Assembly (NCBI GenBank): GCA_031272445.1
Contig: JAISTT010000005.1
Span: forward strand, 1 to 52,236
Source: Candidatus Endomicrobiellum mastotermitis
Lineage (GTDB): Bacteria > Elusimicrobiota > Endomicrobiia > Endomicrobiales > Endomicrobiaceae
Length of the DNA: 52,236 bases
Direction of reading: 5' to 3'
Position 1 is the first letter of the stretch, and every line of letters begins with the position of its first letter. The notes under the pieces are model-generated. The model was given only the letters and a program-made list of their open reading frames with translations. It did not search any database and had not been told where the DNA came from. Both the position numbers and the translations under genes were made by a program. Below are positions 4,011 through 52,236 of this stretch, in pieces.

Positions 4011-6614
4011 CTATAAGCCTCTATAAGCCTTTATTAACACACTCTTAATATCATCAATTAGCGGGTAAACAGGATTAGCACCAGTACATTGATCGTCAAA
4101 AGCTAGATTAACAATATCATCCAGTTTATTGTTAAAATCTTTTTCTGATACACCAGCATCCATTATAGAAAGTGGGATTTGAATATCCTTCTTAAGCTGC
4201 GTTATAGCATCAAGCAGAAAATTAACTTTTTCATCATCATTTTTGCCTCCAAGATCTAACTCGTCAGCAATTTGCCCATACTTTGCCTTAGCATTCGGAA
4301 ACTTATACTGAGGAAATATAGCTTGCTTCCTAGGACAATCAGTAGCATTATAACGTATCACTTGATTAATAACCAAAGCGTTTGCAATTCCATGAGGAAA
4401 GCCAAACATAGCACCAAGCTTATGAGCTATTGAATGGCATAAACCAAGAAACGCATTTGCAAAAGCCATACCAGCAAGAGTTGACGCATAATGAACTTTC
4501 TCTCTTGCAATTGGATCACATTTTCCTCCAACATAAGAACGAGGAAGATATCTAAATATCAATTTTATTGCCTCCAAAGCTGGAGAATTTGTGAAGTTAG
4601 TAGCAAGTACAGATACATAAGCCTCAACTGCATGAGTCAAAGCATCAATACCAGATGCTGCACATAAATTCTTTGGCATAGAATCAACAAAATTTGGATC
4701 AATAATCGCCATATTGGGAGTAAGCGCATAATCTGCAATAGGATATTTAATGTGAGTTTCATCATCTTGAATCACTGCAAACGGCGTCACTTCAGAGCCT
4801 GTACCTGACGTAGTAGGAATTGCAACCATTTGTGCTTTTTTACCCAACTCTGGAATTCTACAAATCCTTTTCCTAATATCCATAAATCGCATGGCAATAT
4901 TTTTAAAATTAGTTTCAGGATGCTCATACATTAACCACATAATTTTTGCTGCATCAATTGGAGATCCTCCTCCAAGGGCAATAATTACATCAGGTTCATA
5001 AGTTCTTATCATGGCTAGAGCTTCATTTATTGCAGAAATTGTTGGATCAGGTTTGACATCAAAAAATATCTGATAATCAATATTAATTTCTTCCAATACT
5101 TCTGTAACATTATAAATTGTGCCAGAATTAAAAAGAAATCTATCTGTCACTATAAAAGCACGTTTTTTACCCTGCAGTTCACGTAATGCTAAATCAGTAG
5201 CTCCTCTCTTGAAGTAAACCTTTGGTGGAACTTTGAACCATAGCATATTTTCGCGTCTCTCGGCAACTGTTTTATAGTTTAATAGATGCTTTACACCAAC
5301 ATTTCCACTCACAGCATTTCCTCCCCACGAACCACATCCAAGTGTTAATGAAGGTTCCAATTTAAAATTGTATAGATCACCAATTCCTCCCTGCGATGAC
5401 GGTGTGTTAATTAAAATTCTTCCTGTTTGCAACTTATTCGCAAATATATTTATTCTATCCTGTCCCTTTTCATCAGTATAGAGAACAGAGGTATGTCCTG
5501 CACCACACAACTCTACAAGTTTACAAGCTTTAATAACAGAATCCTCAAAATTTTCAGCTTTATAAATCGCTATCACTGGCGACAATTTTTCATGTGCAAA
5601 CTCTTCTTCCAAACTAATTTTATCAACTTCACCCGCAAGAATCTTTATATCTAAAGGAACTTTAATTCCCGCAATATCTGCGATCTTAAAAGCAGATTGA
5701 CCAACAATACTAGGATTTAACCTACCCTCTATAAACATAATCTTTGCTAATTTTTCTTTTTCATGCTCATTTAAAATATATGCCCCACGAAGCCTTAGCT
5801 CTTTAATAACATCGTAGTAAACATCTTTAATAACTATAATTGATTGTTCAGATGCACAGATCATGCCGTTATCAAAAATCTTTGACATAATAATTGATGA
5901 AACCGCCATACGTATATCAGCAGTTTCATCAATTATTGCAGGAGTATTACCTGCACCTACACCAAGGGCCGGCTTACCAGAAGAATAAGCCGCTTTAACC
6001 ATTCCAGGACCTCCAGTAGCAAGTATCATATCAATACATTTATCTGTCATAAGTAAATTAGTTAACTCTAAAGACGGGATATCAATCCAACCTATTATAT
6101 CGTTCGGCGCACCAGCTTTAACTGCAGCATCAAGCATAATTTTAGCTGCTGCTATAGTAGATCTTTTGGCTCTTGGGTGAGGTGAAAAAATTATAGCATT
6201 TCTTGTTTTCAGAGAAATCAAAGATTTAAAAATAGCTGTAGAAGTTGGATTTGTAGTAGGAACAATGCCTGCAATAACACCTATAGGTTCAGCAACAATC
6301 TTAATTCCATTAGGTACATTTTCACTGATAATTCCACACGTTTTAGCATTCTTATGCTTATTATAAATATATTCAGAAGCAAAATGATTTTTAATAACTT
6401 TATCTTCCACAATTCCCATACCAGTTTCTTCAACAGCCATCTTGGCGAGAAAAATTCGCGCATGGTTAGCAGCCATTGCTGCAGCTTTAAAAATTTTGTC
6501 AACCTGGCCCTGATCAAAATTAGAATATATCTTTTGTGCCTTTTTCACACGCTGAACAAGGGCCTCTAAAGTTTCCGGAGTATTAATAACATTTAAATCG
6601 TTTCTATTATTCAT
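4011..6614 (-). CDS. adhE: Bifunctional acetaldehyde-CoA/alcohol dehydrogenase AdhE
   Basis: Full-length AdhE (867 residues). The N-terminal half is a CoA-acylating aldehyde dehydrogenase, with the nucleophilic cysteine in NGMICASEQS (about C253). The C-terminal half is an iron-dependent alcohol dehydrogenase, with the nucleotide-binding GGGSPIDAAK and the metal-binding histidines in GLCHSIAHKLGAMFGFPHG. Together they reduce acetyl-CoA to ethanol using two NADH. The enzyme is cytoplasmic and usually forms spirosomes. Both active sites look intact. An AAGGAAG sequence lies upstream of the ATG. It sits between an EtfA gene and the hydrogenase on the same strand, which points to a fermentative redox-balancing block. 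Confidence 0.97.
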   Translation of the reverse strand: MNNRNDLNVINTPETLEALVQRVKKAQKIYSNFDQGQVDKIFKAAAMAANHARIFLAKMAVEETGMGIVEDKVIKNHFASEYIYNKHKNAKTCGIISENVPNGIKIVAEPIGVIAGIVPTTNPTSTAIFKSLISLKTRNAIIFSPHPRAKRSTIAAAKIMLDAAVKAGAPNDIIGWIDIPSLELTNLLMTDKCIDMILATGGPGMVKAAYSSGKPALGVGAGNTPAIIDETADIRMAVSSIIMSKIFDNGMICASEQSIIVIKDVYYDVIKELRLRGAYILNEHEKEKLAKIMFIEGRLNPSIVGQSAFKIADIAGIKVPLDIKILAGEVDKISLEEEFAHEKLSPVIAIYKAENFEDSVIKACKLVELCGAGHTSVLYTDEKGQDRINIFANKLQTGRILINTPSSQGGIGDLYNFKLEPSLTLGCGSWGGNAVSGNVGVKHLLNYKTVAERRENMLWFKVPPKVYFKRGATDLALRELQGKKRAFIVTDRFLFNSGTIYNVTEVLEEINIDYQIFFDVKPDPTISAINEALAMIRTYEPDVIIALGGGSPIDAAKIMWLMYEHPETNFKNIAMRFMDIRKRICRIPELGKKAQMVAIPTTSGTGSEVTPFAVIQDDETHIKYPIADYALTPNMAIIDPNFVDSMPKNLCAASGIDALTHAVEAYVSVLATNFTNSPALEAIKLIFRYLPRSYVGGKCDPIAREKVHYASTLAGMAFANAFLGLCHSIAHKLGAMFGFPHGIANALVINQVIRYNATDCPRKQAIFPQYKFPNAKAKYGQIADELDLGGKNDDEKVNFLLDAITQLKKDIQIPLSIMDAGVSEKDFNNKLDDIVNLAFDDQCTGANPVYPLIDDIKSVLIKAYRGL

Positions 6615-6716
6615 TTCTTATAATTATACTTCCTTTTTATTTAATATTAATAAATATTTACTCTTTACAATAAGTAAGAGGTGATTAAAAATTAGAACTC
6701 TATTTATCTATAAATT

Positions 6717-7952
6717 TTAAATAGATCTATACAATTTTATCTCCCTTATCACATTCGGAATAATTTCATATAAATCACCTTCTAAAGCATAAGATGCAAT
6801 TTGCATCATAGGACATTTTGCATCTTTATTTATTGCAACAATAACATCAGATGAATTCATACCTACCATATGTTGGATCTGTCCAGAGATTCCACAAGCA
6901 ACATAAACCTTTGGAGCTACAGTTTTTCCTGTTTGCCCTATTTGATGCATATCTGATATCCAACCAGAGTCAACCGCTGCCCTTGAGGCACCTACAGCTC
7001 CTCTTAAACACTCAGCCAATTCCTTAATGAGTTTAAAACCTTCTTTATTACCCAACCCTCTTCCACCAGACACAACAATATTTGCATCACTAAGATTAAC
7101 AATATTAGCAGTATATTTGATAAAACCAAGAAACTTTGTTCTATTCAGCAAAGTCTGTGTATCCACCTTATATTCAATAATCTCCCCCTTTCTTCTCACT
7201 TCAGCTTTAGCTTCCTTGAAAACTTTATATCTTACCGTAGCCATTTGTGGACGATGTTCTGGAGTTAAAATAGTTGCCATGATATTTCCACCGAAAGCTG
7301 GTCTTGTTTGCTGAAGATTTTTTGTTATACTATCCACTTCTAATGACGTACAATCTGCGGTAAGACCTGTACAAATCCTTGCTGCAACTCTTGATGCGAA
7401 TGAACGCCCTATATTTGTTGCCCCAATTAAAATAATTTCAGGTTTTTCCTTTTTTATAAGCCTAGTTAAAACGTCAGTATAAGGATCATCTTGAAACTCA
7501 ACAAAAATAGGATCGTCACAAACATAAACCTTACTTACTCCTCTATCTATTAGTCCCTGAACCTTTGATCTAATATCACTACCTATTAAGACAGCACTCA
7601 GAGATGTCCCAAGCTTTCCGGCTAGCTTTTGACCTTCATTTAAAAGCTCATATACAATATCTGATATCTCACCATGCCTCTGTTCTGCATAAACCCATAC
7701 ACCTTTATACAAATTTTTATCAATTTCAACTTGCACTTTATCCTTTTTCAACTCTATTGCATCAAACTTACAGATACGAATACATAATCCGCAATATGTA
7801 CATTTATTTAAATCTATAACTGCAAGCTTAAACCTTCTCTTATGTTCTGATGATCCCATTTCAAGCATTGAAATCGCACTAAAAGGACATCTACTTTCGC
7901 ACATCTTACAACCAACACATTTATCAGCTAACACCTTTATAATATTTATCAT
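6717..7952 (-). CDS. etfA: Electron transfer flavoprotein alpha subunit with N-terminal 2[4Fe-4S] ferredoxin domain
   Basis: 411 residues. Residues 1-65 form a ferredoxin domain with two CxxCxxCxxxC sets (C12/15/18/22 and C51/54/57/61). The rest is an EtfA core ending in the FAD-binding region with SGGRGLGNKEGF, VGASRAAVDSGW and GQTGKTVAPK. EtfA receives electrons from a flavin dehydrogenase with EtfB. Ferredoxin-fused EtfA is known from bifurcating systems such as caffeyl-CoA reductase (CarE) and lactate dehydrogenase of Acetobacterium. The start is ATG at 7952, with GAGGAG nine bases upstream. It lies 158 bases downstream of etfB, an unusually wide gap for this pair. Confidence 0.93.
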   Translation of the reverse strand: MINIIKVLADKCVGCKMCESRCPFSAISMLEMGSSEHKRRFKLAVIDLNKCTYCGLCIRICKFDAIELKKDKVQVEIDKNLYKGVWVYAEQRHGEISDIVYELLNEGQKLAGKLGTSLSAVLIGSDIRSKVQGLIDRGVSKVYVCDDPIFVEFQDDPYTDVLTRLIKKEKPEIILIGATNIGRSFASRVAARICTGLTADCTSLEVDSITKNLQQTRPAFGGNIMATILTPEHRPQMATVRYKVFKEAKAEVRRKGEIIEYKVDTQTLLNRTKFLGFIKYTANIVNLSDANIVVSGGRGLGNKEGFKLIKELAECLRGAVGASRAAVDSGWISDMHQIGQTGKTVAPKVYVACGISGQIQHMVGMNSSDVIVAINKDAKCPMMQIASYALEGDLYEIIPNVIREIKLYRSI

Positions 7953-51191: not shown

Positions 51192-51695
51192 ATGAATAAA
51201 AGGGGGAATAAACAAATTATAGAGATAAATGACGCTTATTTCATGCTTCAAGCTATAAAAGAAGCTCATAAAGCAGGTACCGCAAAAGAAATACCTATAG
51301 GAGCAGTTATAATCCAAGATAGGAAAATAATAGCAAGAGGTTTCAATAAATGCATTTCATTATCCGATCCTACAGCTCATGCCGAAAATGTTGCGTTGAG
51401 GAAAGCTGCAAAAAAATTAAAGAATTATCGCTTGAATAATTGTTCCATATATATTACAATAGAGCCTTGTATAATGTGCATAGGAGCTTTAATAAACGCT
51501 AGAATAGAAAGAATCATTTTCGGTGCATTTGATAAAAGAATTGGTACATGCAAGAATATATATAAAACAGTATGTACAAAACTTAATCACAGAATAGAAA
51601 TAAAAGGCGGAGAAGAAAAATATTTAAGTACCAAATGCGCAGATATTGTTAAAAATTTTTTTAAAGAAAAAAGAATTAAAAAACAAAAAAAGTGA
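51192..51695 (+). CDS. tadA: tRNA-specific adenosine deaminase
   Basis: 167 residues, cytidine-deaminase fold. TAHAENVAL has the zinc-ligand His63 and proton-shuttling Glu65; EPCIMCIGAL has the two cysteine ligands (C93, C96). It deaminates A34 to inosine in tRNA-Arg(ACG). FGAFDKRIGTCKN near the C-terminus is the usual TadA segment. The basic tail (KEKRIKKQKK) is slightly longer than usual. No clear ribosome site precedes the ATG. The tmRNA gene begins about 30 bases after the stop, in the same direction. Confidence 0.93.
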   Translation: MNKRGNKQIIEINDAYFMLQAIKEAHKAGTAKEIPIGAVIIQDRKIIARGFNKCISLSDPTAHAENVALRKAAKKLKNYRLNNCSIYITIEPCIMCIGALINARIERIIFGAFDKRIGTCKNIYKTVCTKLNHRIEIKGGEEKYLSTKCADIVKNFFKEKRIKKQKK

Positions 51696-51813
51696 TATTT
51701 ACTAAATTAATTTTTTTTGTGGGAGGGGGTGAATAGGTCTCGACGAAAACGATTGATGTAATGACAGCAGGTCGGAGTTAGTCGATGGCTCCGTAAAAAT
51801 CGACTAAAAAATA

Positions 51814-51948
51814 AACAACGATGATTTAACTTCAACACAAAACTCCAAAATTCCTATTTTAGGAACGCTTTTGTTAGGCTTTTTCTTATGGATAGAAAAA
51901 AAATTCAAAGGCTTCAAGAATCTTGGAGCAGTGCCAATGGCTGCTTAA
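51814..51948 (+). other. tmRNA tag reading frame, apparently about 44 codons
   Basis: Seven to ten bases after pseudoknot 1, where the resume codon is expected, the frame reads N-N-D-D-L-T-S-T-Q-N. It stays open through a hydrophobic stretch (ILGTLLLGFFLWI) and a basic part to end GAVPMAA and TAA (51946-51948). The start resembles the usual A-N-D-E, and the MAA end resembles the LAA degron read by ClpXP. Usual tags are about 8-35 residues. The exact resume codon (51814 or 51817) is uncertain. Confidence 0.65.
51843..51928 (+). repeat. 86-nt inverted-repeat-bounded segment inside the tmRNA tag region
   Basis: CTCCAAAATTC (51843-51853) pairs with GAATCTTGGAG (51918-51928) at 10 of 11 positions. 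Inside are smaller hairpins: TTCCTA/TAGGAA (51851-51865) and TTTTTCT/AGAAAAA. The segment leaves the reading frame open across its flanks, so it may be a palindromic insert analogous to Rickettsia palindromic elements. I found no second copy in the window by eye. Confidence 0.5.
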
Positions 51949-52236
51949 AGCAGTCACGTTTTATCTTAAGACACCTGCTATGAGAATAAAACGAAAAAGA
52001 GCAGGTTAGTTTTAAACTGTTTGTATCGTCAGTTTAAAGTGAAATTGAAATGATACCGGTTTATAACGTAATCTTGTCTGGAGACAACGTTATAAATGAG
52101 AAAAATTTCCAGACTAAACCTGTAGTGGTCTTACTGAAACATTTTCGGACGCGGGTTCGATTCCCGCCACCTCCATTTCATAATAGTTACGAAAGTATTT
52201 GTTAGGCAAGTACACTACTATAATTTTGATATTACC

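Follow-up and report, generated by a model that had tools for sequence, protein, structure and literature searches.

A one-piece tmRNA gene near the contig end

The window analyzed here, the whole stretch of 52,236 nucleotides from Candidatus Endomicrobiellum mastotermitis (genome G000 in a comparison set of 42 genomes of the genus Endomicrobium), carries a gene for a one-piece tmRNA (ssrA; 51725..52175, plus strand). At a bit-score cut-off of 47, the RF00023 covariance model has a single match in the whole genome, at 51725-52178 on the plus strand (144.9 bits, E 6e-57), and this match covers the model from end to end (positions 1-374). The acceptor stem, GGGGGUG/CACCUCC-A, includes the G3.U70 pair, and both the T-arm and pseudoknot 1 are present. 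The gene does not encode CCA; its discriminator base is A52175, and the Rfam match extends 3 bases beyond it. An 8-bp helix 5 (51938..51956, plus strand) presents the UAA stop of the tag frame (51946-51948) in its loop, the canonical site for tmRNA stop codons (PMC1168896). The tmRNA that an earlier note on this DNA had described, with all its landmarks present, is borne out by this full-length match. ARAGORN makes no call at the window's tmRNA, and most long-tag tmRNAs of Endomicrobium are likewise missed by it. The upstream neighbor is tadA, of the tRNA adenosine deaminase family (51192..51695, plus strand), an arrangement conserved in the genus and the class; a promoter scan 5' of ssrA returned nothing beyond shuffle expectation, and the locus sits 61 bases from the contig end.

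Given the reduced genome, in which the next gene of the pathway, clpX, has become a pseudogene (see below), it could be argued that ssrA is itself decaying and that its long frame is a by-product. However, every landmark, the G3.U70 pair included, is intact, the body of the gene is 83-88% identical to that of relatives, and the gene for the partner protein SmpB is both intact (G000:C1:25033-25455; TIGR00086, 164 bits) and under purifying selection (dN/dS 0.09-0.16), which together make decay of ssrA highly improbable.

The tag frame and its length in Endomicrobium

The tag reading frame comprises 43 codons (NDDLTSTQNSKIPILGTLLLGFFLWIEKKFKGFKNLGAVPMAA; 51817..51945, plus strand), or 44 residues counting the alanine charged on the tmRNA. 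It opens with the resume codon AAC (51817-51819) and is preceded by UAAAC (51812..51816, plus strand), the five bases whose position upstream of the resume codon has a role in frame setting (PMC3968760). This context recurs in the genus as (U/C)AAA(C/U) before the resume codon (variants TAAAC, TAAAT and CAAAC, among tmRNAs with a readable 5' part) and in the class as UAAGU followed by GCA. Because the conserved context agrees with the clean ARAGORN calls in the long-tag relatives G008, G028, G036, G037 and G041, all of which begin at the same resume position, the tag can be placed at 51817-51945. The earlier note had proposed a tag frame of 44 codons; its open frame ending in PMAA and then TAA stands, but its 44th codon is the first AAC, upstream of the resume codon, so that the start was called one codon early. 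The frame is open from 51811 until the TAA at 51946-51948, and stops interrupt both other frames. Openness alone is weak evidence, as the share of dinucleotide shuffles that remain open is 8.5% for the window's tag and 16.6%, 3.4% and 5.1% for the other three of the four related tags, and the strongest argument against chance is conservation among relatives: homologous tags of 43 aa are found in G027 and G062 and one of 47 aa in G006. Judged by this conservation, the 43-codon frame is a real tag, and its translation is well supported. The suggestion that the tag might be extremely long is likewise upheld, as relatives share its frame, length and hydrophobic core.

With its tRNA-like domain, pseudoknot 1, resume context, stop-bearing helix 5 and AA end, the window's RNA resembles the standard one-piece tmRNA (RF00023, with an ANDENYALAA-like tag). 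It differs in its 43-codon tag, where 10 codons are usual and the published range is 8-35 (PMC3968760), in a resume codon for Asn, which is unusual in that the same review lists Ala and sometimes Gly, and in a hydrophobic core of 15 residues, with lysines after it. According to a 2025 tmRNA database paper, tags of 10 aa are the commonest, and the sole extreme mentioned in the accessible part of its text is a tag of 2 aa (PMC11915505). A search of the literature on Endomicrobium tmRNA found no text.

Across Endomicrobium the tags span 14-50 aa, mostly 20-28, and the longest are those of G033 (50), G020 (49), G006 (47) and G000, G027 and G062 (43 each). The window's tag closes with VPMAA (51931..51945, plus strand), a degron end of the ClpX/Lon type, in keeping with the (M/L)P(I/L/M)AA in which most tags of the genus terminate; few of the genus's tmRNAs reach a different kind of end. 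Beyond Endomicrobium, tag length is 8-10 aa in the class and phylum, and other families of the order have tags of either 9 or 21-24 aa. On these sequence comparisons, long tags are a genus-wide habit in Endomicrobium. Some tags contain in-frame repeats, such as ..GQAKML..GQAKML.. in G020 and VQMQVQMQV in G061. The 5' part of the G020 tmRNA looks mis-assembled: at locus L089 (G020:C108, 1-780) the tmRNA and a truncated tadA are fused, and the 3' part of the tmRNA recurs in inverted orientation at the contig end, an arrangement that is probably an assembly artefact. Three very reduced Endomicrobium genomes (G017, G031 and G034; loci L054, L055 and L056) hold tmRNAs of only 270-307 nt, which have apparently lost the pseudoknots 3' of the tag.

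The earlier note had also allowed that the RNA is processed or recoded, that is, that the insert part (51843-51928) is cut from the RNA or skipped by the ribosome to give a short tag. An imperfect 11-nt inverted repeat lies at the edges of this part, and the tag of the relative G001 is without the segment. However, dropping these 86 nt shifts the frame, which then reads NDDLTSTQNSANGCLKQSRF... and reaches no AA end; G062 and G027 have no such repeat arms in their homologous tags, and the window's arms are unpaired in the minimum-energy fold (z-score -1.4); and no other copy of the segment occurs in the genome. In addition, no intron family has a match in the window, and the known tmRNA introns sit in the T-loop (PMC11915505), whereas the T-arm is uninterrupted here. 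Two-piece and group-I-intron tmRNA genes, which share with the window's gene the presence of extra internal sequence, thus differ from it: the present gene is in one piece, and its extra sequence is coding and lies inside the tag. Removal or bypass of the segment is accordingly very unlikely, and that part of the earlier note falls away. A stable structure in the tag was rejected as well, the fold z-score being the value given above. In another Elusimicrobia genome (RIFOXYA2_FULL_47_53; G039:C20, locus L043), an insert of ~110 bases lies within the pseudoknot 1 region of the tmRNA, bounded by the inverted repeat CCTGGGAACCAGTATTG / CAATACTGGTTCCCAGG; the tag encoded there is a normal ANENLALAA.

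The hydrophobic core and its constraint

Within the tag, the hydrophobic core IPILGTLLLGFFLWI (51853..51897, plus strand) is followed by EKKFK. Its 15-residue KD value is 2.27, and the best such values in G027, G062 and G006 are 2.21, 2.21 and 2.15, respectively; the remaining tags of at least 15 aa reach no more than 1.58. These four genomes form a lineage with G001, G006+(G027,G062,G001,G000), which is fully supported both in an FtsH tree and in a five-protein tree, and within which only G001, with a tag of 22 aa, lacks the core. Read against these trees, the core has been inherited within a single lineage of five genomes, for which one gain and one loss suffice: a hydrophobic segment of ~21 codons would have been present in the ancestor of the lineage, kept in four of the five sampled genomes and lost in one. 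A mobile or repeated element was discarded as the source of the insert, protein and DNA searches having found no second copy in the genome, and the NCBIfam models, those for PEP-CTERM-like sorting signals included, have no match to the window's tag.

Among the G000, G062 and G027 tags, identity is 48-51%, pN is 0.24-0.26 against a pS of 0.35-0.59, and corrected dN/dS is 0.23-0.62 as compared with ~0.06 for lon. These values show constraint on the encoded peptide that is consistent but weak, so that much of the tag may drift. It is therefore possible to suppose that the tag is translated but that its extra length and core are without function, being products of slippage or in-frame insertion and of drift in a symbiont whose population is small, with an open frame and a suitable end as the only demands on the tag. 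The spread of tag lengths in the genus, the internal repeats in G020 and G061, the dN/dS of the tag and the absence of the segment from G001 would all fit such a history. However, hydrophobicity has been held in four of the five members although sequence identity fell to 21-51%, equal hydrophobicity occurs in only 0.4% (G000) to 4.4% (G027) of the dinucleotide shuffles that stay open, and pN is below pS, so that drift as a full account of the tag seems unlikely.

Loss of ClpX and the proposed fate of tagged proteins

The genome of G000 is 795 kb in an assembly that is 86% complete, and the lifestyle of a termite-gut symbiont is taken from knowledge of the genus (PMC4505116, PMC8809381). FtsH (638 aa), Lon (784 aa) and ClpP (202 aa) are intact. 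At the position between clpP and lon where relatives carry clpX, G000 has no ORF of 150 aa; similarity to clpX is instead scattered over three frames (locus L137, 3434-4663; G000:C6:40933-42162), with 38 in-frame stops and 23 indels relative to G001, as compared with a single 6-base gap each in the clpX of G062 and of G027. This reflects decay and not poor sequence, because the flanking clpP and lon have dN/dS of 0.05-0.09. The observation that the tag-bearing genome combines a clpX pseudogene with intact clpP and lon next to it is new. A further copy of clpX was not found in the 86% complete assembly, and no functional ClpXP is encoded at the sole clpX locus found; given that level of completeness, the remainder of the genome could encode another unfoldase. 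Neither ClpA nor ClpC was found in G000, the only protein with a Clp_N domain being ClpB, which does not serve ClpP.

The genus offers further cases. In G033 (locus L243, 4964-4974; G033:C6), the gene for trigger factor adjoins lon directly, clpP and clpX being gone, and in G029 (locus L244, 3404-4054; G029:C3), tig, clpP and clpX are gone; the deletions of clpP and clpX lie between gltX/tig and lon. The tags of these two genomes end in LFA and SVV, respectively, and thus not in AA, whereas among intact-ClpX genomes a non-AA end occurs in 1 of the 25 counted (G014, IAV); G000 keeps PMAA despite its broken clpX. A Fisher test of non-AA ends against confirmed ClpX loss gives p of 0.02-0.04 on three losses, with kinship ignored and hand-made tables, and for these reasons a change of tag end with ClpX loss across the genus is no more than a hint. 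The entire locus is absent from several other genomes, perhaps only through incompleteness. In G025, a second, decayed clpP-clpX set lies at C26, about 5699-7464, and G005 has two additional intact ClpX-like ORFs, 46% identical (C8:202-1161 and C52:37249-38217). The idea that losing ClpX brought about the hydrophobic tag was rejected, as G027 and G062 carry such a tag alongside an intact ClpX. The core therefore predates the loss, which it may have eased, or it may be neutral.

Taken as a whole, the data make it probable that the window encodes a functional one-piece tmRNA whose 43-residue hydrophobic tag is translated whole, with Lon and/or FtsH as the likeliest proteases to clear its products. 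In this model, the tmRNA would, in the manner of other bacteria, add an alanine and the 43-residue tag to proteins of stalled ribosomes, the whole tag being translated without excision or bypass and consisting of a tmRNA-typical N-terminal part (NDD...), the hydrophobic core with its lysines, and the PMAA end. The tagged proteins would then be cleared by Lon and/or the membrane protease FtsH, the likeliest route given that ClpX is a pseudogene and no ClpA or ClpC was found; degradation of tagged proteins by both Lon and FtsH is known (PMC3985003). The hydrophobic stretch could serve as an added recognition element, providing extra affinity, or could mediate membrane contact, and the 17 residues after the core could act as a cytoplasmic tail for FtsH. 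However, the positive charges on the C-terminal side do not fit a simple tail anchor, and a peripheral or degron role is as likely. The hydrophobic tag could thereby alter the fate of rescued proteins, as the earlier note had supposed. A more specific version, in which the tag has a built-in membrane-directing segment that delivers rescued proteins to FtsH (or Lon) instead of ClpXP, is rather doubtful and can be offered only tentatively.

A parallel may be drawn with Mycoplasma, in which ClpXP is absent, the tag ends in AFA, and the extended tag is read by Lon (PMC3985003, citing Gur and Sauer 2008 and, for the extended tag and Lon, Ge and Karzai 2009). Both systems combine an extended tag with ClpXP loss, and G033, without ClpP and ClpX, ends in FA. 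However, the phylum and the sequence are unrelated, the hydrophobic core belongs to the Endomicrobium lineage, and the long tag of that lineage is older than the loss of ClpX and retains its AA end. By analogy, the intact Lon of G000 is a putative reader of the tag.

The tags described here reach 50 codons, beyond the range given in the review, and one kind among them is hydrophobic; ARAGORN misses most of these tmRNAs. Although confirmed ClpXP losses in the genus are still few (three species), Endomicrobium provides a natural experiment, with ClpXP-intact species, ClpXP-loss species and tags that vary in length and end, and makes it possible to test in a second, unrelated group how tag and protease co-evolve, which has hitherto been known chiefly from Mycoplasma. 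If the tag does carry a membrane-directing segment, trans-translation would be rewired in these symbionts, and the genus would display consecutive steps in the loss of ClpXP and the change of the tag.
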